A stretch of 64,000 bases of DNA. Origin: Chryseobacterium tructae (lineage in GTDB: Bacteria; Bacteroidota; Bacteroidia; Flavobacteriales; Weeksellaceae). Each line of letters begins with the position of its first letter. The stretch's first letter is position 1. The stretch covers positions 3,720,001-3,784,000 of the forward strand of contig NZ_JAUFQR010000001.1 in the NCBI RefSeq assembly GCF_030409875.1, read 5' to 3'. The notes under the pieces are model-generated. The model had not been told where the DNA came from, made no database searches, and saw only the letters and a program-made list of their open reading frames with translations. The translations under genes and the position numbers were made by a program. Of this stretch, positions 33,564 to 50,218 are shown piece after piece.

Positions 33564-34826
33564 TTAAATCAGCAGATTCATTAAAGACGGATCATTATTG
33601 AGATAATTCACAAAGAAATCCTGCTTTTTCATATTATCCATTAGTGGAGTGAAATCTTCTTTTTGTTTCAGTGCAATTCCTACTACTGCGATCCCCTTTT
33701 CTTTTGAATTCTTCTGGGTATATTCAAAAAAGGTAATATCATCAGTAGGTCCGAGCACATCCATCACAAAGGTTTTCAAAGCTCCGGGGCGTTGTGGAAA
33801 CCTCACCAGAAAATAATGCTTTAAGTTAGCATGCAGTAAAGCTTTTTCTTTGATCTCTTCCATTCGTGTGATATCATTATTGCTTCCACTGATGATACAG
33901 ACTACATTTTTTCCCTGTATCTGATCTTTGTATTTTTCCAATGCAGCTACTGAAAGAGCTCCTGCCGGTTCTACCACAATAGCATCTTTATTATATAATG
34001 AAAGTATCGTTTCACACACAAGCCCTTCTTCTACTGTAGCCATATCATAGAGCGTGTCTTTACAAAGTTGAAACGTAAGATTTCCTACTTGCTGTACAGC
34101 GGCACCATCTACAAAGCGGCTAATCTTTTCAATATGTACAGGCTGTCCTTCTTCCAGCGCTTTTTTCATACTTGCTGCAGCCGAAGGTTCTACTCCAATG
34201 ATTTTTGTTTGAGGAGATAATTCCTTAAAGACAGAACAAATCCCGGCTGCCAGTCCTCCACCGCCAATCGGTACAAAGAGATAATCAATAGGTTCGTCAC
34301 TCTGTTCAAGGATTTCCAATGCCGTTGTGGCCTGACCTTCAATAATCGCAGGATCATCAAAGGGGTGAATGAATATTCCTTCGTGCTCATTGCAAAACCT
34401 CATCGCTGCCTCTTTTGCCTCATCGAAGGTATCACCCCATAAAGCAACATCAATATAATCACCACCAAACATTTTTACCTGCTCCAGCTTTTGTCCCGGT
34501 GTTGGTAAAGGCATAAAAATAGTTCCTTTCACTTTCATCCTGTTACAGGCAAAAGCAACTCCCTGGGCATGATTTCCTGCGCTGGCACAAACAATTCCTT
34601 TGGACAATTCTTCATTAGACATTGTTGCCATTTTATTGTATGCCCCTCTGATTTTGTAAGACCTTACTCGTTGAAGATCTTCTCTTTTAAAGTGTATTTT
34701 CGCATGATAAACCCTAGACAAGTTGTTATTAACAGCTAAAGGGGTTCTGACGCATACACTTTCAAGTCTTTCTGCCGCTTTGTAAACGTTATCCAACATG
34801 GATAAGTAGGTTTCTCCCGTCCTCAT
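33564..34826 (-). CDS. ilvA: Threonine ammonia-lyase (threonine deaminase)
   Basis: PLP enzyme, 420 residues, converting threonine to 2-oxobutanoate, the first committed step to isoleucine. The PLP lysine is in RSYKIRGAYNKM, the glycine-rich phosphate loop is PIGGGGLAAG. A single C-terminal ACT-like domain (HYFLVRFPQRPGALKTFVMDVLG) probably binds isoleucine for feedback control. It is the last gene of the ilvEDBNCA operon; the ilvC stop is 12 bases upstream. Confidence 0.93.
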   Translation of the reverse strand: MRTGETYLSMLDNVYKAAERLESVCVRTPLAVNNNLSRVYHAKIHFKREDLQRVRSYKIRGAYNKMATMSNEELSKGIVCASAGNHAQGVAFACNRMKVKGTIFMPLPTPGQKLEQVKMFGGDYIDVALWGDTFDEAKEAAMRFCNEHEGIFIHPFDDPAIIEGQATTALEILEQSDEPIDYLFVPIGGGGLAAGICSVFKELSPQTKIIGVEPSAAASMKKALEEGQPVHIEKISRFVDGAAVQQVGNLTFQLCKDTLYDMATVEEGLVCETILSLYNKDAIVVEPAGALSVAALEKYKDQIQGKNVVCIISGSNNDITRMEEIKEKALLHANLKHYFLVRFPQRPGALKTFVMDVLGPTDDITFFEYTQKNSKEKGIAVVGIALKQKEDFTPLMDNMKKQDFFVNYLNNDPSLMNLLI

Positions 34827-34838
34827 TTTTTGTTTGTA

Positions 34839-35884
34839 TTAATTATTCTCAGGTCTCAGGCTGCGTACAGTTTTTCCTGCTTGCCACATTTCGCTTTCTC
34901 TTAACTCTGTTAACTCTACTTCTAATTTTTCTCTGTAATCAGGCTTACTGTTGCTGTCAATAGATCTTTGCGCTTCATTTCCTGCTGCAACATTATCATA
35001 CAATTCTTCAAATAAAGGAGAAGTTGCATCTCTAAAACGTTTCCACCAGTCCAATGCACCTCTTTGAGCCGTGGTACTACAATTAGCATACATCCAATCC
35101 ATTCCGTTTTCTGCAACCAATGGCATCAATGATTGGGTAAGTTCTTCTACCGTTTCATTAAATGCTTCAGAAGGGCTGTGTCCATTTTTCCTTAATACAT
35201 CGTATTGTGCAGCAAATATTCCCTGTACAGCACCCATTAATGTCCCTCTCTCCCCTGCAAGGTCACTGTATACTTCTTTTTAAAGTCTGTCTCGAATAAA
35301 TATCCACTTCCTATCGCAATACCAAGAGCAGCTACTCTATCTCTCGCTTTTCCTGTTGCATCCTGATAAACGGCAAAGCTGCTATTTAATCCTCTATCCT
35401 GAAGGAACATTCTTCTCAACGAAGTTCCTGATCCTTTAGGAGCTACCAAAAAAACATCTACATCTGTCGGAGGAACAATTCCTGTACGTTCATTAAAGGT
35501 AATCCCGAATCCATGAGAAAAATACAATGCTTTTCCTGGTGTAAGATGTTGTTTTACCTTTGGCCAATATTCAATTTGTGCAGCATCACTCAGAAGGTAA
35601 CAGATAATAGTACCTTTTTCTAAGGCTTCCTCTATTTCAAATAAAGTTTCTCCTGGTACAAATCCGTCAGCAACTGCCTTATCCCAGGATTTAGAATTCT
35701 TTCTCTGCCCTACAATTACATTAATTCCGTTGTCTCTCTGGTTAAGTGCCTGCCCAGGCCCCTGTACTCCATAGCCGATTACAGCTACTACTTCATCCTT
35801 TAATACTTCCTGTGCCTTTTGTAATGGAAATTCTTCTCTTGTTACTACGTTTTCCTCTACTCCTCCGAAATTTAATTTTGCCAT
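34839..35884 (-). CDS. ilvC: Ketol-acid reductoisomerase (one apparent frameshift)
   Basis: IlvC, about 348 residues after repair, makes dihydroxy-acids from acetolactate or acetohydroxybutyrate with NAD(P)H. The Rossmann motif is VAVIGYGVQGPGQALN; catalytic-domain motifs include GAVQGIFAAQYDVLRKNGHSPSEAF. The frame breaks at the five T of 35277-35281 (five A in the coding strand). One extra A gives FKKEVYSDLAGERGTLMGAVQG, the expected family sequence. The short length fits class I enzymes. The 259-base gap upstream, between ilvN and ilvC, is unusually long for this operon. Confidence 0.93.
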
Positions 35885-35889
35885 TTTCT

Positions 35890-36140
35890 GTAATTTAATT
35901 TTGTTATTTATGATATTGATTAATAAAAACTGATTTCTCTTATGCTAAAATCAAAAAAGATTGTATTGTAACATTTAAGTTCACTTTAGTAAGTTCAGAT
36001 AATGCCAATAAAAAAGTTCACATAAGATGAAAATCAAAGATCTTCAAAGAACTTTAGTGTACTTGATATGCATCAGATCTGTCACTTAAAAATATCTTAA
36101 GTGTTATTTTCACCGTTTCATATAACGTCTTGTATTGTTA
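35890..36140. other. Non-coding gap between ilvN and ilvC with imperfect repeats
   Basis: No gene is visible. Related strings occur twice: CACTTTAGTAAGTTCAGA near 35992 and AACTTTAGTGTACTTGAT near 36050, together with TTCACATAAGATGAAAAT. They resemble the ACTAAAGTTC/CTATGTG strings at 62725-62755, so a decayed copy of a dispersed intergenic repeat is likely. A small stem CACTTAAgatattTTTAAGTG (coding-strand sense) is also present. I see no leader peptide here. Confidence 0.4.
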
Positions 36141-36143
36141 TAT

Positions 36144-36425
36144 TCAGCTAGCATATTCTATTGCCGTGAAATATGGGTTTTTGTGATAATGAACCTCCAA
36201 TATATCCACTTGTTTTTCCATTTGTCTGGTGATTTTTTGTACAGATTCTTCTGTTTCTCTAATGGTAATCACAAACTTTCTGATATTTTCCATCTCAGCG
36301 GGTCCCATATTAAAATTGACCATGGAAATTCTTCTTCTCGAAAAAATAGCATTGATCCTGCTGATCAATCCTAAACAGTCTTCTGTATAAGCTGTTATCG
36401 TATATTCTTTATGTTCTTTTTTCAT
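36144..36425 (-). CDS. ilvN: Acetolactate synthase small subunit, short ACT-only form
   Basis: A 93-residue regulatory subunit consisting of one ACT domain (EYTITAYTEDCLGLISRINAIFSRRRISMVNF). This is about the length of E. coli IlvM and lacks the C-terminal domain of the ~160-residue IlvN/IlvH type. The other frames downstream of the stop show no continuation, so it does not seem to be cut by a frameshift. It follows ilvB by 15 bases. It should associate with IlvB and affect valine feedback. Confidence 0.85.
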   Translation of the reverse strand: MKKEHKEYTITAYTEDCLGLISRINAIFSRRRISMVNFNMGPAEMENIRKFVITIRETEESVQKITRQMEKQVDILEVHYHKNPYFTAIEYAS

Positions 36426-36440
36426 ATTTTTATATTTAAT

Positions 36441-38159
36441 TTATTGTTGATTCAATACAATCTCTGAAACACTTTTCCCTTGTGGAATCATTGGAAATAC
36501 ATTATGTTTTTTCCCAGTCATTACCTCCAGCAAAAAGGCTCCTTGATGGGTAAGCATTTCATCAATAGCTTCTTTAATATCTTCTCTTTGGGTTATTTTT
36601 CTTCCGGGAATATGATATCCTTTTGCTACCTGTACAAATTCCGGACTCTGAATATCTACAGAAGAATAACGTTCCTCATGAAACAATTCCTGCCACTGTC
36701 TTACCATTCCCAGATAGCTATTATTCAGAATTAAAATTTTAACTTCAGGATGATATTGCATGATGGTACCTAGCTCCTGAATATTCATTTGAGCCCCTCC
36801 ATCTCCCATCACTGCTATAATTGGAAACCCAGTTTCTCCATATGCTGCTCCTATTGCTGCAGGAAGGCAAAACCCCATGGTACCCAATCCACCACTGGTA
36901 ATATTGGTTCGAGGATGTTTAAATTTTGAATATCGGCAGGTTATCATCTGATGTTGTCCCACATCTGTTACAATAACAGCTTTCCCCATAGTTCTTTCAT
37001 TAAGATGTCTGATCACTTCTCCCATAGTGATTTCTCCTTCCTCCGGATATAATTCCTCATTAATAAGATTAATATTTTCTGTCTCCAGGCAATCTTTGAA
37101 TCTTTGATGCCATTCCGAATGTTCTTTATTGTTAATCTGTTTTGTAAGAATTGGTAAAGTTTCCTTACAGTTTCCCAGAACCGGAACATCTACTTTTACA
37201 TTTTTATTGATTTCTGCTTTGTCAATATCCAGATGAATGATCTTTGCCTGTTTGGCATATTGATCCAGTCTTCCGGTCACACGGTCATCGAAGCGCATGC
37301 CTATTGCAATCAGAGTATCACATTGGTTGGTAAGGATATTGGGGCCATAATTTCCGTGCATTCCTACCATTCCTACTGCTTGTGGATGATCTGTAGGAAG
37401 TGCTCCCATTCCAAGAGCAGTCCATGCTACCGGAATTCCTGATTTCTGCAAATTCTATAAATTCCACTTCTGCTTTCCCCAACATGATTCCCTGTCCAGC
37501 AATAATGAAGGGGCGTTCTGCATTATTGATCAATTCTGCAGCTCTCTCCATAGCTTCCATAGAGGGAACAGGATCAGGTCTATAACTTCTCAGAGAATGA
37601 CAAGGTGTATACCCTTCATATGATACTTTTTGCAGTTGCGCATTTTTCGTAATATCAATAAGAACCGGCCCCGGACGTCCTGATTTAGCAATATAAAATG
37701 CTTTGGCTAACACTTCGGGAAGTTCATTGGCATCTGTTACCTGATAATTCCATTTGGTAACCGGACTCGTAATATTCATCACATCAATTTCCTGAAAAGC
37801 GTCTGTTCCCAGAAGGTGTTCAAATACCTGCCCTGTGATGCATACAATTGGCGTATTATCTAACAATGCATCTGCTAGTCCTGTCACCAGATTAGTTGCT
37901 CCGGGACCACTGGTTGCCATCACTACACCTACTTCACCGGATACTCTTGCCAATCCTTGTGCTGCATGTACAGCAGCCTGCTCATGACGGACCAGGATAT
38001 GCTCCAACTGTTCTTTATAATCATAAAGCGCATCATAAATAGGGATAATAGCACCTCCGGGATACCCGAAACCGTTTTCACACCCTCCTGAAGAAATGCT
38101 TCAAGGATAATCCGGCTTCCGCTCAGTTCTTTTTCTGTTGAAAGATTTAAATTCTTCAT
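36441..38159 (-). CDS. ilvB: Acetolactate synthase large subunit (two apparent frameshifts)
   Basis: ThDP-dependent enzyme, about 573 residues, joining pyruvate with pyruvate or 2-oxobutanoate. Motifs: the ThDP-activating Glu region (HEQAAVHAAQGLARVSGEVG), VMATSGPGATN and the ThDP-binding GDGGAQMNIQELGT...ILNNSYLGM. The first break is at 38069-38071: one more T in the coding strand gives [20 protein letters not shown]. The second is at 37443-37445 and needs either two extra A (FAEKSGIPVAWT) or one fewer. Essential-pathway motifs are intact on both sides, so errors are more likely than decay. Confidence 0.92.
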
Positions 38160-38171
38160 GATGTTTTGATT

Positions 38172-39859
38172 TTAAATTTCATCCGTTACACAGCCTTCAG
38201 CAGCAGATGATACCGTTAATGCATATTTATAAAGCAACCCTTTTTTAACTTTTAGAGCAGGTTTCTGCCAACCTTCTTTTCTTTTTTTGATTTCTTCCTC
38301 TGAGACCTTAAGCTGTATGGTATTATTTACCGCATCTATTTCGATAAGGTCATCATTTTCTACAAAGGCAATCAGACCACCTTCATGAGCTTCGGGAGTA
38401 ATATGTCCCACCACAAAGCCATGAGTTCCGCCACTGAACCTTCCATCTGTAATCAAAGCGACACTATTTCCTAATCCGGCTCCGATTAAAGCACTGGTAG
38501 GTTTCAGCATTTCCGGCATTCCGGGAGCTCCTTTTGGTCCTTCATTCCGAATCACAATCACATCTCCATGCTGTACGGTTCCATCTTCAATACCTTTGAT
38601 GAGGTTCTTTTCGCCATCGAATACACGGGCTTTTCCTACAAATCTTTCTCCTTCTTTTCCCGTTATTTTGGCTACACTTCCTTTTTCTGCAAGATTTCCA
38701 TAAAGAATTCTCAAATGACCGGTAGGTTTCACCGGGTTCGATAATGGTCTAATAACTTTCTGAGCATCAAAATCCAAGCTTAGTACCTTTTCAAGGTTTT
38801 CGGCTAATGTTTTTCCCGTAACCGTCAAACAATTTCCATGTAGCAAGCCTTCTTCCAGTAAGTATTTCATTACAGCAGGTGTCCCTCCGTGCTCATGTAA
38901 GTCCTGCATCAGGTATTTCCGCTTGGTTTGAGATCTGCTAAAACGGGAGTACAGTCACTCATTTTTTGGAAATCATCCTGAGTAAGAGGCACCCCTACAC
39001 TTTTAGCCATGGCTATAAAATGAAGAACAGCATTGGTACTTCCTCCTAAAACCACAATGAGACGAAGTGCGTTTTCAAAAGCATGTCTTGTCATGATATC
39101 TGAAGGTTTTATATCTCTTTCCAGAAGAATCTTCAGGTATTGGCCTGCTTCCAGGCATTCATTCTGTTTTTCTTTACTTAAAGCCGGATTGGATGCTGAG
39201 TAAGGAAGGCTCATCCCTAGCGCTTCTATTGCAGAAGCCATTGTATTTGCGGTATACATTCCACCACATGCACCAGCACCAGGACAGGAATTTTTAACAA
39301 CTCCATCAAAATCTTCCTCTGAGATCTCACCTGCTATTTTCTTTCCCAACGCTTCAAAGGCAGAGACGATATTCAGGGTTTCCCCTTTATAACATCCCGG
39401 AGCAATCGTTCCTCCATATACCATCAGCGAAGGTCTATTTAATCTTCCCATTGCGATGATCGTTCCCGGCATGTTTTTATCACAACCTGGTAAAGCAATA
39501 AGTCCGTCGTAATATTGAGCTCCACAAATGGCTTCAATGCTGTCTGCAATCACATCCCGGCTGACCAGTGAATAACGCATTCCGTCTGTACCGTTACTCA
39601 TCCCATCACTTACTCCAATTGTGTTAAAGATCAATCCTGCCAATCCATGATCCCAGGTTCCCTTTTTAACGACTTTAGCCAAATCATTCAGGTGCATGTT
39701 ACAGGTATTTCCATCATATCCCATACTTGCAATTCCGATTTGTGCCTTGTGCATATCATCTTCTGTAAAACCTATTCCATATAGCATTGCTTTTGCTGCT
39801 GGCTGTTCGCTGTTCTGTGTGAATGTTTTTGAATATTTATTTAACATATTATCCCGCAT
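38172..39859 (-). CDS. ilvD: Dihydroxy-acid dehydratase (one apparent frameshift)
   Basis: IlvD, about 562 residues after repair, an iron-sulfur dehydratase producing the 2-oxo acids of isoleucine and valine. Cluster-ligand regions are visible: [18 protein letters not shown] and [17 protein letters not shown]. The C-terminal half has [20 protein letters not shown]. The frame breaks at the TTT of 38916-38918 (AAA in the coding strand); one more A gives [17 protein letters not shown], the usual sequence. It is the second gene of the operon, about 165 bases after ilvE. Confidence 0.93.
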
Positions 39860-40025: not shown

Positions 40026-40898
40026 TTACAATGACAAAACTCTCACCAATTTCAAATAAGCCTGTTGAACCTTCTCACTGGCGGTGTCTTCCCATTTTTT
40101 TGTGAAAGGAACATCATCCAAAGAATCCAAGGCTACAATTTCAGCTGCTGTACCACAGAAAAATCCGGCATCTGCCCCTCTCATTTCTTCTGGTTTAAAA
40201 AGGGTTTCTTTAACAGGAATATTCAGTTCATTGCATATTTCAAAAACCGTCTGCCTTGTGATACCGGGAAGAATGCTTCCTTTTGCAGGAGTAAATAATG
40301 TCCCGTCTTTTTCATAAAAAACATTAGCGCCTGAACTTTCTGCCACATGTCCATTCTCATCCAATACCAGAGCTTCATCATATCCTTTGTCTTTTGCATC
40401 CTGACAAGCTAAAATAGAGTTCACATAGTGGCCGCCTACTTTTGCTTCGACCTTAAAAGCTTTCGGATTAGGACGCTGAAATTCCGAAGTCATGATCTTC
40501 ATTTTATCTGCCAGATAGCCATTGCTCCATTCCCAGGCTAATAAAGACAGGTAAGATTCTTTACCTTTTGAAAGCGACATATTGGGCGAGCAGGTTACCA
40601 AAGGCCTGATATACGCATCAGTAAAACCGTTAAGCTCCAAAAGTTCATAGGTAAGTTCCGTAAGCTGATCTGCTGAATAATCAAAAGGGATATGCATCAG
40701 TTCTGCGGATCTTTGTAATCTTTCATAATGCTCTTTCGCTTTAAAGATTCTGGTACCATGGGCAGTACTGTAGGATTTGATACCTTCAAAAACTGAATAT
40801 CCATAGTGAAGCGATTGCCCGTAAAGATTGGTTCCGGCTTCTTTGGCCTTCATAAAATTTCCATTAAAATAGATGATCGTGTCGTCGTTGTAATACAT
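40026..40898 (-). CDS. ilvE: Branched-chain amino acid aminotransferase
   Basis: Fold-type IV PLP aminotransferase, 290 residues, last step of Ile/Val/Leu synthesis. The N-terminal YGQSLHYGYSVFEGIKSY, the PLP-lysine region (AKVGGHYVNSILACQDAK) and the family signature (EALVLDENGHVAESSGANVF ... GSILPGITRQTV) are present. It is the first structural gene after the double attenuator leader, so the whole ilv operon is expected to respond to charged tRNA-Ile/Val. Placing the aminotransferase first makes the operon able to run the pathway from start to end. Confidence 0.93.
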   Translation of the reverse strand: MYYNDDTIIYFNGNFMKAKEAGTNLYGQSLHYGYSVFEGIKSYSTAHGTRIFKAKEHYERLQRSAELMHIPFDYSADQLTELTYELLELNGFTDAYIRPLVTCSPNMSLSKGKESYLSLLAWEWSNGYLADKMKIMTSEFQRPNPKAFKVEAKVGGHYVNSILACQDAKDKGYDEALVLDENGHVAESSGANVFYEKDGTLFTPAKGSILPGITRQTVFEICNELNIPVKETLFKPEEMRGADAGFFCGTAAEIVALDSLDDVPFTKKWEDTASEKVQQAYLKLVRVLSL

Positions 40899-40931
40899 GT
40901 TATAGGGGGTTAAAATTTAACAAATGGGAAT

Positions 40932-40962
40932 AAAAAAAGCCCTCTCACAGTGTGAGAGGGCT
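40932..40962 (-). terminator. Attenuator terminator 2 of the ilv leader
   Basis: Read on the minus strand: AGCCCTCTCACA and TGTGAGAGGGCT form a perfect 12-base complementary pair, followed by a run of seven U. Its 5' arm contains UCUCACAC, which can instead pair with GUGUGAGA at the end of leader peptide 2 (40991-40998), giving a mutually exclusive antiterminator. It lies 34 bases before ilvE. Confidence 0.88.
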
Positions 40963-40992
40963 CAATATATGTACAGTCATACATCTTCCGTC

Positions 40993-41049
40993 TCACACAC
41001 GTAAGGGAATAATAATGACGATAATAATTACTGCGAATAATGGATACAT
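40993..41049 (-). CDS. Leader peptide 2 of the ilv operon attenuator
   Basis: An 18-residue open frame, MYPLFAVIIIVIIIPLRV, with six Ile and three Val codons, eight of them in one unbroken block. It is too short for ordinary gene finding, but its composition is exactly that of an Ile/Val attenuation leader. The stop codon overlaps the antiterminator arm (GUGUGAGA, 40991-40998). A ribosome that finishes translation would mask that arm and allow terminator 2 to form; a ribosome stalled on the Ile/Val block would leave it free. Confidence 0.85.
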   Translation of the reverse strand: MYPLFAVIIIVIIIPLRV

Positions 41050-41072
41050 ACTTGTACTTTAAAAATTAAAAC

Positions 41073-41100
41073 AAAAAAAGCCGCTTCAAAATGAAACGGC
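41073..41100 (-). terminator. Attenuator terminator 1 of the ilv leader
   Basis: Minus-strand GCCGUUUC-auuuu-GAAGCGGC followed by seven U. The 5' arm GCCGUUUC is exactly complementary to GAAACGGC at 41136-41143, inside the last codons of leader peptide 1, so the terminator and an antiterminator are mutually exclusive. It lies 24 bases before the start of leader peptide 2. Confidence 0.85.
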
Positions 41101-41128
41101 TTATATATAATTTAAATTAAAATCTATT

Positions 41129-41212
41129 TTAAAATGCCGTTTCCTGACTGTTGTAAATGACAACAGTTGCAATAGAAATGACAATAATATTTTTCTGATT
41201 CGTAAAATTCAT
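41129..41212 (-). CDS. Leader peptide 1 of the ilv operon attenuator
   Basis: A 27-residue open frame beginning MNFTNQKN and continuing IIVISIATVVI, then YNSQETAF. Eight of eleven residues in the middle block are Ile or Val. The antiterminator arm GAAACGGC (41136-41143) covers codons 24-26, just before the stop. The ATG is four bases after a strong promoter -7 box, so translation may begin at or very near the first base of the mRNA. Confidence 0.85.
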   Translation of the reverse strand: MNFTNQKNIIVISIATVVIYNSQETAF

Positions 41213-41216
41213 AATG

Positions 41217-41246
41217 CAAATGTATAAACTTTTTAAAATCCCACAA
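41217..41246 (-). promoter_or_regulatory. Promoter of the ilv operon
   Basis: On the minus strand, TTG (41244-41246) and TACATTTG (41217-41224) are separated by 19 bases, matching the Bacteroidota -33/-7 consensus. It sits in the 50-base gap after the folP stop. The expected transcription start is about 41210-41213, at the ATG of leader peptide 1. Confidence 0.8.
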
Positions 41247-41262
41247 GTTTTTTTAACACTTT

Positions 41263-42128
41263 TTATTTTTTTCGTAAAAAATGCTTGACGGTTTCCTTTG
41301 CTTCAGCTACATCGTGAACTCTCAAAATTTTAGCACCTTGTTCCAATACTTTCATGTGCAATTTCTGCGTTTCCTCATTGATATCCAGAGGTGATTTCCC
41401 CAACGGTTTATAAATAAATGACTTCCTGGAAATACCGATCAGTAAAGGAAATTTCCAAATCCAAGATATTCAACCTCATTGATCATTTTCATCTGATCTT
41501 CTACGGCTTTCCCAAAGCCAAAACCAGGATCTAAAATGATATCTTTTACCCCTTTTTGCAACAATTCATTAGCCTTTTCAGAAAAGTATCGATTCACTTC
41601 TAATGTGATGTCTTCGAATTTAATTTTATCATGCATGGTTTCATACGAAGGATTGACATGCATCAAAATGTATGGAAGTCTGGTTTCTGCTGCTGTATCA
41701 AACATTTTTTCATCATATTGACCTCCCGAAATATCATTAATGATGTCTACTCCTTCATTGAATCCAAATCTTACCGTTTCAGCGTAGAATGTATCCAATG
41801 AAATAAGTACTTCAGGAAACTCTTTTTTGATCAGAGAAATGCTGTTCCCAAGTCTCATAATTTCCTCTGCACTGCTCAAAAACTCAGCATTGGGGCGTGT
41901 AGATTGTGGCCCGATATCAATAATTTCGGCTCCCTCTTTCAGCAACTTCTCGGTATGCTCTAATGCCAGTTTCTCATCATTAAATTTTCCACCATCTGAA
42001 AACGAATCCGGAGTAAGGTTCAGGATTCCCATGATCTTTGGAGTATCCAGCTGCACCAGTCTGCCATTACAGTTGATAGAATGGGTTTGAGGGTAGGAGA
42101 GTTTTAGAGTTTTAGAGTTTGAAAGCAT
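41263..42128 (-). CDS. folP: Dihydropteroate synthase (one apparent frameshift; start region within a repeat)
   Basis: FolP, about 288 residues after repair, condenses p-aminobenzoate with the pterin in folate synthesis and is the sulfonamide target. Motifs: IMGILNLTPDSFSDGGKF, IIDIGPQSTRPNA, ISLDTFYAE, DIINDISGG, ILDPGFGFGKA and, after the shift, LLIGISRKSFIY. The break lies in the AAATTT at 41449-41454; one added base continues the frame to a TAA at 41263. The first ~14 codons (SKTLKLSYPQTH) are encoded by a CTCTAAAACTCT-type repeat also found in the gap upstream, so the N-terminus may be repeat-derived. Confidence 0.9.
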
Positions 42129-49951: not shown

Positions 49952-49959
49952 TATATTTG
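49952..49959 (+). promoter_or_regulatory. -7 promoter box upstream of the cobalamin riboswitch
   Basis: TATATTTG at 49952-49959, directly before the riboswitch; the -33 element is not clear. Confidence 0.5.
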
Positions 49960-49965
49960 TCCTCT

Positions 49966-50128
49966 TTAAGGTTGAACACTGTTCATAATAGGGAATCAAG
50001 TGAGAATATTATCCAAATCTTGAGCTGTACCCGCAACTGTAAGCTGTTTATTCCTATAGTTTCATTATACCACTGGGCTTTGCCTGGGAAGGTTAGCTAT
50101 AGGATGCGAGCCAGGAGACCTACCTTAA
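49966..50128 (+). ncRNA. Cobalamin riboswitch
   Basis: Closed by a 7-bp P1 (TTAAGGT 49966-49972 with ACCTTAA 50122-50128). Inside are the conserved boxes in order: GGGAATC...GTGAGAAT, AGCTGTACCCGCAACTGTAA, CACTGGGC...GCCTGGGAAGG and the B12 box GATGCGAGCCAGGAGACC. A GACATA-tcg-TATGTC hairpin and a TAGGA...TCCTA pair at 50144-50180 are possible parts of the expression platform. It controls the T9SS-exported protein gene whose ATG is 91 bases further on. Confidence 0.93.
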
Positions 50129-50218
50129 ATAGACATTTAGTTTTAGGATATGGACATATCGTATGTCTTCATTTCCTATCAATAAGTTTCGGGAATAAAA
50201 CTTTAATTTAATTATATT

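Follow-up and report, generated by a model that had tools for sequence, protein, structure and literature searches.

Two putative Ile/Val transcription attenuators in series ahead of the ilv operon of Chryseobacterium tructae, with similar tandems elsewhere in Bacteroidota

The 64,000-nucleotide stretch of Chryseobacterium tructae DNA analysed here (hereafter the window) carries on its minus strand an operon for isoleucine and valine biosynthesis, with the gene order, as assigned by NCBIfam, ilvE, ilvD, ilvB, a small subunit gene (ilvN), ilvC and ilvA. The first gene, ilvE (40026..40898), encodes a branched-chain aminotransferase and scores above the cut-off of TIGR01122; the remaining genes occupy 33564..39859, and TIGR02079 (threonine ammonia-lyase) was also matched above its cut-off in the operon. 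Between 33564 and 42128 ilvD, ilvB, ilvC and folP are each spread over two or more frames. The split ilv genes gave piecewise NCBIfam matches, each below cut-off, the match of the small subunit was weak, and no ilvD was found at E 1e-150 in the window's own assembly. The leuA gene of the same genome contains two in-frame stops. The split frames and the leuA stops are likely to be read errors of the assembly, or else signs of real decay; both leaders described below are intact. The folP pieces lie directly upstream of the ilv promoter and have the same direction. No terminator-like site was found between them and the promoter (41101-41450), thus folP transcripts would enter both attenuators.

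For comparison we used 80 named loci obtained in an IlvE scan of GTDB contigs. The window and 51 of these loci (L036-L058, L060-L084, L086, L089 and L093) form a clade of 52 leaders, to which the percentages of paired alignment cells given below refer. L059 was left out of this set; its contig ends after 113 nt of upstream sequence, the visible part does not resemble unit B, and it may be an exception. Loci L006-L035 were excluded from the counts.

The operon is preceded by a promoter of the Bacteroidota type. The sigma-A -7 box TACATTTG (TAnnTTTG; 41217..41224, minus strand) is located 19 nt downstream of a TTG upstream element (41244..41246, minus strand). The box has the form TAnnTTTG in 50 of the 52 leaders and TAnnTTTA in the other two (L077, L084); the 19-nt spacer is kept in 50, is 18 nt in L089, and the TTG element is absent from L084. 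The distance between the box and the ATG of the first leader ORF is exactly 4 nt in all 52 leaders. Because of this constant distance leader 1 is probably leaderless. The sigma-A box of Flavobacterium psychrophilum occupies -12 to -5, and 5.5% of the mRNAs examined in this species are leaderless (PMC9723704); in F. johnsoniae probable promoters were defined by 4-5 nt between box and start, and 87% of the predicted transcripts have leaders longer than 10 nt (PMC6847099). Taken together with these data, the 4-nt gap predicts that the 5' end is the A of the AUG or its neighbour. The leaderless-type spacing seems particular to the window's clade: judged by eye, the box-to-ATG distance is approximately 18-22 nt in Aequorivita (L097) and in an MYNS-type leader (L148), and approximately 7 nt in L102 and L107. 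We also looked for a second promoter between the two units. A loose TAnnTT[TG]N pattern precedes leader 2 in only 31/52 leaders, always as TAATTTTT, TAACTTTT or TAATTTTA and in none as TAnnTTTG, thus a conserved internal promoter was rejected.

Unit A begins with leader peptide 1, MNFTNQKNIIVISIATVVIYNSQETAF (41129..41212, minus strand), 27 amino acids long, in which codons 9-19 are the control codons. Codons 11 (GTC) and 12 (ATT) are invariant in the clade. The last Val/Ile codons can fold into a 7-bp hairpin, CUGUUGU/ACAACAG (P1, 41148..41166), which the original prediction does not mention; it is paired in 96.7% of the cells, and three of its seven pairs show changes on both sides. P1 might be a pause hairpin. 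The 5' arm of the antiterminator, GAAACGGC (41136..41143), pairs with GCCGUUUC (41100-41093) in 95.9% of the cells, the last pair being broken in 13/52 leaders. The terminator hairpin, GCCGTTTCA.TTT.TGAAGCGGC, extends from 41100 to 41080 and its T-run reaches 41073; it is paired in 99.8% of the cells, and at its base a G-C pair is replaced by A-U in 13/52 leaders, so that both partners have changed. Leader 1 ends in a different and shorter tail in L077 and L084 (21 and 20 aa); the Ile/Val block and a pairing 7-letter arm remain.

Unit B follows the same plan. Leader peptide 2, MYPLFAVIIIVIIIPLRV (40993..41049, minus strand; 18 aa), is present in 52/52 leaders and contains the run ATT ATT ATC GTC ATT ATT ATT CCC, of which the last three ATT codons and CCC are invariant. 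The antiterminator 5' arm GTGTGAGA (40991..40998) overlaps the TGA stop codon and is paired in 90.4% of the cells; six of its eight pairs are invariant and the two outer ones are broken in 27/52 and 13/52 leaders. Between the arms there is a small hairpin, UGUAUG-ACUGUA-CAUAUA (40966..40983; 98.0% of cells paired). The terminator hairpin (40961-40939), with a T-run to 40932, has nine invariant pairs out of ten and is paired in 99.6% of the cells.

The original prediction, two complete attenuator units behind one promoter, was borne out by a detector that requires a BCAA-rich ORF, a terminator and an antiterminator together: it finds both units. The proposed exact complementarity of the arms to the terminator 5' arms was also seen, over 8 nt in each unit of the window. 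The features of a leader-peptide attenuator (control-codon ORF, terminator, antiterminator pairing exclusive with it) are present in each unit, and the two regulatory ORFs lie ahead of one operon, as in a tandem leader. Retention of the Ile/Val runs in homologous leaders had been named beforehand as a test, and they are kept in 52/52; both arm pairs were detected in 50/52, the exceptions being L070 and L073, where one mismatch in arm A made the detector miss unit A. Terminators A and B are the only terminator-like sites on either strand between 40850 and 41450 (mean of 50 shuffles, 0.2). The folding of the 281-nt leader RNA has a z value of -5.5, and none of 200 shuffled sequences was as stable. 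With relaxed settings the detector reported a single unit in 1 of 905 dinucleotide shuffles and in 3 of 181 reverse complements, and nothing in the other 904 and 178; an earlier control had given a single false unit in 4/100 reverse complements and a double in none. It must be noted that the detector is imperfect: a unit that can be seen by eye in L165 was not detected.

Within the clade the mean pairwise identity is 0.88 and 0.91 for leader ORFs 1 and 2, and 0.85 and 0.95 for terminators A and B, compared with 0.57 for the spacer between the units, 0.73 for the segment before ilvE, 0.80 for ilvE as a whole and 0.49 for its fourfold sites. Leaders and terminators are thus far less variable than the spacer and the fourfold sites of ilvE, which argues that both units are under selection at the nucleotide level. 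In the clade alignment the terminators together with P1 and the unit B hairpin are paired in 98.7% of the cells, against 34-55% when the pairing scheme is slid along the alignment; for the antiterminators with the same two hairpins the values are 95.0% and 25-52%. Five pairs in the terminator set and six in the antiterminator set have changed on both sides, numbers that are reached by 2/500 and 11/500 shuffles, respectively, and the number of pair types is equalled by 36/500 shuffles in both sets. Of the co-variation expected across Chryseobacterium leaders, the preserved pairing was found and the covariation within the clade proved only modest; it is silent for much of the pairing, as there is little variation in the arm cores. 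Between lineages the arms differ in sequence and the complementarity between arm and terminator stays, a complementarity that the detector itself demands.

The comparison of terminator and antiterminator energies that had been suggested gave -11.7 and -11.2 kcal/mol for unit A, and -17.9 and -20.4 kcal/mol for unit B. We then modelled the growing transcript as RNA that is hidden up to the front edge of the ribosome and ends past the 5' arm and loop of the terminator. In such partial folds of the window, the antiterminator of unit A had a probability of 1.00 with the A-site at codon 19 (last Ile) or earlier, and 0.00 from codon 22; the antiterminator of unit B stood at 0.99-1.00 to codon 13, 0.75 at codon 14 (last Ile) and 0.00 from codon 16. 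The same calculation was done for the 50 clade leaders with both units detected. With a ribosome at the last Ile/Val codon and assumed footprints of 11 or 13 nt, antitermination (at least 0.5) was predicted in 50/50 A units and 50/50 B units; with a ribosome at the stop codon it was predicted in a single A unit (at 11 nt) and in no B unit. The outcome depends on the footprint: with 15 nt and the ribosome at the last Ile codon, antitermination persisted in only 26/50 B units. The calculation was extended to ten further tandem loci, where 9/10 first and 7/9 second units were antiterminating at the last Ile/Val codon with the 11- and 13-nt footprints, and 4/10 and 6/9, respectively, with 15 nt.

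Full-length equilibrium folds, on the other hand, preferred the terminators at every ribosome position tried (0.95-0.96 for A, 0.77-1.00 for B). If the units work as attenuators, antitermination must therefore be kinetic, with the antiterminator forming first. A switch in which the ribosome at the stop codon covers the arm and the ribosome at the control codons leaves it free appears in the predicted folds of growing RNA only. A ribosome at the stop codon would cover the start of the arm in 187/187 units, a placement favoured by the search range of the detector; this set omits the spurious units of L122 and L127 (one each) and the sole units of L178 and L208, and counts L100/L118 and L085/L139 double. 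In folds without a ribosome the antiterminator exceeded 0.5 in 50/50 A units and 51/52 B units, and no protector (1:2) stem was predicted in either unit of the clade leaders, thus an untranslated leader would be ON. In E. coli attenuators a protector stem enforces termination when the leader is not translated, a feature that is not universal.

We think it highly probable, and the best explanation of these observations, that two ribosome-mediated transcription attenuators in series read one signal and act as a double lock. When charged Ile- and Val-tRNAs are plentiful, a ribosome would reach the stop codon of leader 1 and cover the unit A arm, terminator A would form, and most transcripts would end near 41073; those that pass would be tested again in the same way at leader 2 and terminator B, where termination would give ends near 40932. 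Under shortage of Ile (or Val) the ribosome would be held on the Ile/Val codons and each arm would stay free, so that it could pair with the terminator's 5' strand while the 3' strand has yet to be transcribed; RNA polymerase would then pass. Pausing at P1 may let the first ribosome catch up. We infer that read-through into the operon would approximate the product of the read-throughs of the two units, giving a deep OFF state and a steep response, with full opening only when both units read shortage. What points to such a lock is the conservation of both units, the pair counts, the partial folds, the Ile/Val operon downstream and the recurrence of tandems in the phylum. The equilibrium folds, the predicted ON state of an untranslated leader, the modest covariation and a clade of congeners with a single unit (see below) count against it.

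The original prediction had left open whether two units multiply repression or read the supply of Ile and Val separately. In the latter arrangement the units would sense different amino acids, Ile in B, and also Val and Leu in A, and form an AND gate. Leaders of Aequorivita and of a Flavobacterium MAG fit such a division, their type-B peptides containing almost only Ile and their type-A peptides also Val and Leu; in the window's clade, however, Ile is the main residue and Val occurs too in both units (summed over the 52 leaders, 286 Ile and 158 Val codons in A, 315 and 110 in B, the latter counted to the Pro codon). Multiplied repression fits these Ile-dominated leaders better, and separate sensing appears unlikely.

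Less probable still is that only one unit regulates, presumably B with its strong terminator adjoining ilvE, and that unit A is a relic or the terminator of folP. The folP pieces directly precede unit A and have no terminator of their own before the ilv promoter, the region 40850-41450 offers no terminator-like site besides A and B, and relatives with a single unit exist. A plain terminator, however, would need neither leader codons nor an arm, and unit A has kept its Ile/Val codons in 52/52 leaders, and the pairing of P1, arm and terminator, nearly as strictly as unit B. Control of the operon by a riboswitch or T-box, with short ORFs that are there by coincidence, is very improbable: the leader RNA is structured, as noted, but no leader, riboswitch or T-box family of Rfam 15 reached its gathering score in the ilv leader, and conservation tracks the codons and the arms. 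The sole match at that level in the window lies elsewhere, a cobalamin riboswitch (RF00174, 107 bits) at 49952-50141 on the plus strand. Chance can practically be dismissed: ATT repeats arise easily in AT-rich intergenic DNA and single false units did occur in reverse complements, but no shuffle or reverse complement gave a double, and an accidental pair of ATT runs and terminators would not account for the conservation.

Returning to the double lock, tandem leaders are not confined to the window. Among 181 leaders (two contigs occur twice) the relaxed detector assigned two units to 72, a single unit to 55 and three units to 2; the other 52 had none. Two-unit leaders comprise 50/52 of the window's clade and L141, which belongs to the same GTDB genus. 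Besides these, 23 loci have two or more units, and 20 contigs are left after removal of L126 and L127, which look spurious by eye, and after counting L100 and L118 as one contig. These 20 are Aequorivita (L097, three units), a Flavobacteria MAG (L105, three), a Flavobacterium MAG (L118), Gelidibacter (L110, L111), Pontibacter (L107), the MAGs L102, L122, L128 and L129, and ten loci of the window's family (L145-L151, L153-L155). In L105 the first and third antiterminators are weak (5 bp) and the third unit lacks the usual stop; in L118/L100 a third unit, with a TTG start, was seen by eye only. Together with the window, the tandem contigs fall into nine GTDB genus groups (g1, g11, g12, g21, g26, g28, g35, g54 and g171), which may or may not include the named Aequorivita, Gelidibacter and Pontibacter. 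Inspection by eye suggests two types of unit outside the clade: type A units often share a hairpin at the end of the control-codon block (e.g. TGTGATTATCACA) and the terminator GCCTCCCGA..TCAGGAGGC, and in type B units the stop codon often lies within the arm. In each of L097, L105 and L118 the final pair of units consists of near copies. By eye, part of the Ile block seems to be gone from the type-B leader of the relative L152 (MNLYTNNIIINSPP); both terminators remain.

Single units were found in L085 (Cloacibacterium rupense, same contig as L139), L087 (C. takakiae), L088, L136-L138, L140 and L142-L144; eight of these loci (L087, L088, L136, L138, L140, L142-L144) form a second ilvE clade in the window's GTDB genus, with one unit only. 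The IlvE search matched 22/296 genomes at the phylum level and 34/296 at the order level; because of the few phylum matches ilvD, which matched at least 211/296 genomes, was used at the phylum level. Of 60 ilvD-anchored upstream stretches over the phylum, 15 had one unit (those of L178 and L208 look spurious), 45 had none and none had two, thus the tandem is, as far as seen, tied to ilvE-led operons. In the window's genome the Ile-Val-Ile block pattern occurs in the ilv leader and in one unit-less place only. We also considered tandem attenuation at hisG and leuA of this genome and rejected it: hisG (L216) has a single His attenuator with the leader MKPIFLALHHYYHHLC, its terminator (CCGTCTG.AGTAAG.TAGACGG) found by the scan and its arm by eye, and the 5.3 kb upstream of leuA contain no unit or terminator.

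The codons of the leaders are biased. In the clade GTC accounts for 143/268 Val codons, against 50/648 in 28 long ORFs of the window. Outside the clade (92 leaders of 70 loci, with L100, L139, L126, L127, L178 and L208 left out) it accounts for 76/179 in leaders against 153/1973 in genes of the same loci (Fisher p 7e-32, uncorrected for kinship); GTA makes up 18/179 and 726/1973 of the Val codons, and ATT 486/617 and 1012/2216 of the Ile codons, respectively. Among the tRNA genes of the window's genome (at least 99 RF00005 hits, with 150 of 464 first-look candidates scored), ARAGORN recognised three tRNA-Val genes with the anticodon TAC and four tRNA-Pro genes with TGG; no tRNA-Val GAC or tRNA-Pro GGG was found in the 33 stretches around RF00005 hits, which take in all listed places apart from twelve more hits of the Ile/Ala pair of rRNA operons. 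Two RF00005 hits gave no gene and two an odd anticodon. In L277 (96-248) ARAGORN reported two tRNA-like genes with the four-letter anticodons cttc and cttt. As no GAC or GGG tRNA was found, GTC and the CCC of unit B would be read by wobble only. Two observations speak against the rule being strict: the clade's B units use GTA as often as GTC (54 and 53 of 110), and outside the clade the Pro codon CCC is not enriched (8/73 vs. 195/1244). We regard the wobble-codon bias as a lead; constraints from hairpins or base composition could also bias the codons.

It is tempting to combine these observations into a wider scheme, which we consider possible but slightly on the doubtful side. Serial attenuators, A-B or, by copying of B, A-B-B', would be an old and recurrently expanded device of BCAA control in Bacteroidota; the order of type A (hairpin in the last control codons) and type B (stop codon inside the arm) would have been kept, wobble-read codons (Val GTC, Ile ATT) would sharpen stalling, and in Chryseobacterium the leaderless leader 1 would start ribosome and polymerase in step.

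In E. coli-type attenuators the antiterminator arm is covered by the ribosome at the stop codon, and a terminator precedes the first gene. The units described here resemble E. coli amino-acid attenuators in their ORF rich in control codons, in an arm that would be covered at the stop and in a terminator before the first gene; they differ in that two or three units stand in series, no protector stem is predicted and leader 1 is probably leaderless. Ribosome-mediated attenuators of amino-acid operons include those of E. coli ilvGMEDA, ilvBN, leu, his and trp, and the control codons, codon choice and synchronised start have been treated theoretically (PMC1183508). The mgtCBR leader of Salmonella is similar in having two short ORFs (mgtM, mgtP) coupled to alternative RNA structures, but these read different signals, ATP and proline, whereas here Ile/Val codons are found in both ORFs, each followed by a terminator of its own; the same source contrasts mgtCBR with the metE leader, which has two terminators, and calls the two-signal tandem singular, a single attenuator being the norm for nutrient-biosynthesis genes (PMC3641672). 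The msrD macrolide-resistance leaders, with two leader peptides for one signal (erythromycin), have been called a 'double-lock system', although they stall by antibiotic sensing and not by amino-acid supply (PMC10314930). A second tandem terminator occurs before rimP in several Gammaproteobacteria (PMC2965389). In Bacteroidota, leader-peptide attenuation has been suggested before amino-acid operons of F. psychrophilum, as here (PMC9723704), and short ORFs in long 5' UTRs suggested attenuation in Bacteroides thetaiotaomicron (PMC7366714); the relevant passages of both papers mention no tandem, nor do the corresponding parts of PMC4833913 and PMC8632094 mention tandem amino-acid attenuators. Among the titles listed from the open-access PMC literature, none reports attenuators in tandem before an amino-acid operon of Bacteroidota. 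The comparative study by Lopatovskaya (2010) reportedly deals with attenuation of bacterial amino-acid operons and may bear on tandem leaders.

The ilv leaders would thus represent serial attenuators with the same kind of control codons, set against the single-attenuator norm (PMC3641672). They make it possible to test for what reason a cell needs a multiplied OFF state and whether it replaces a repressor, and how attenuation works without Shine-Dalgarno starts. The bias for a wobble-read Val codon would allow a direct test of the role of codon choice in attenuation, for which theory exists (PMC1183508). Finally, the tandem leader may offer parts for low-leak control of gene expression in Bacteroidota.
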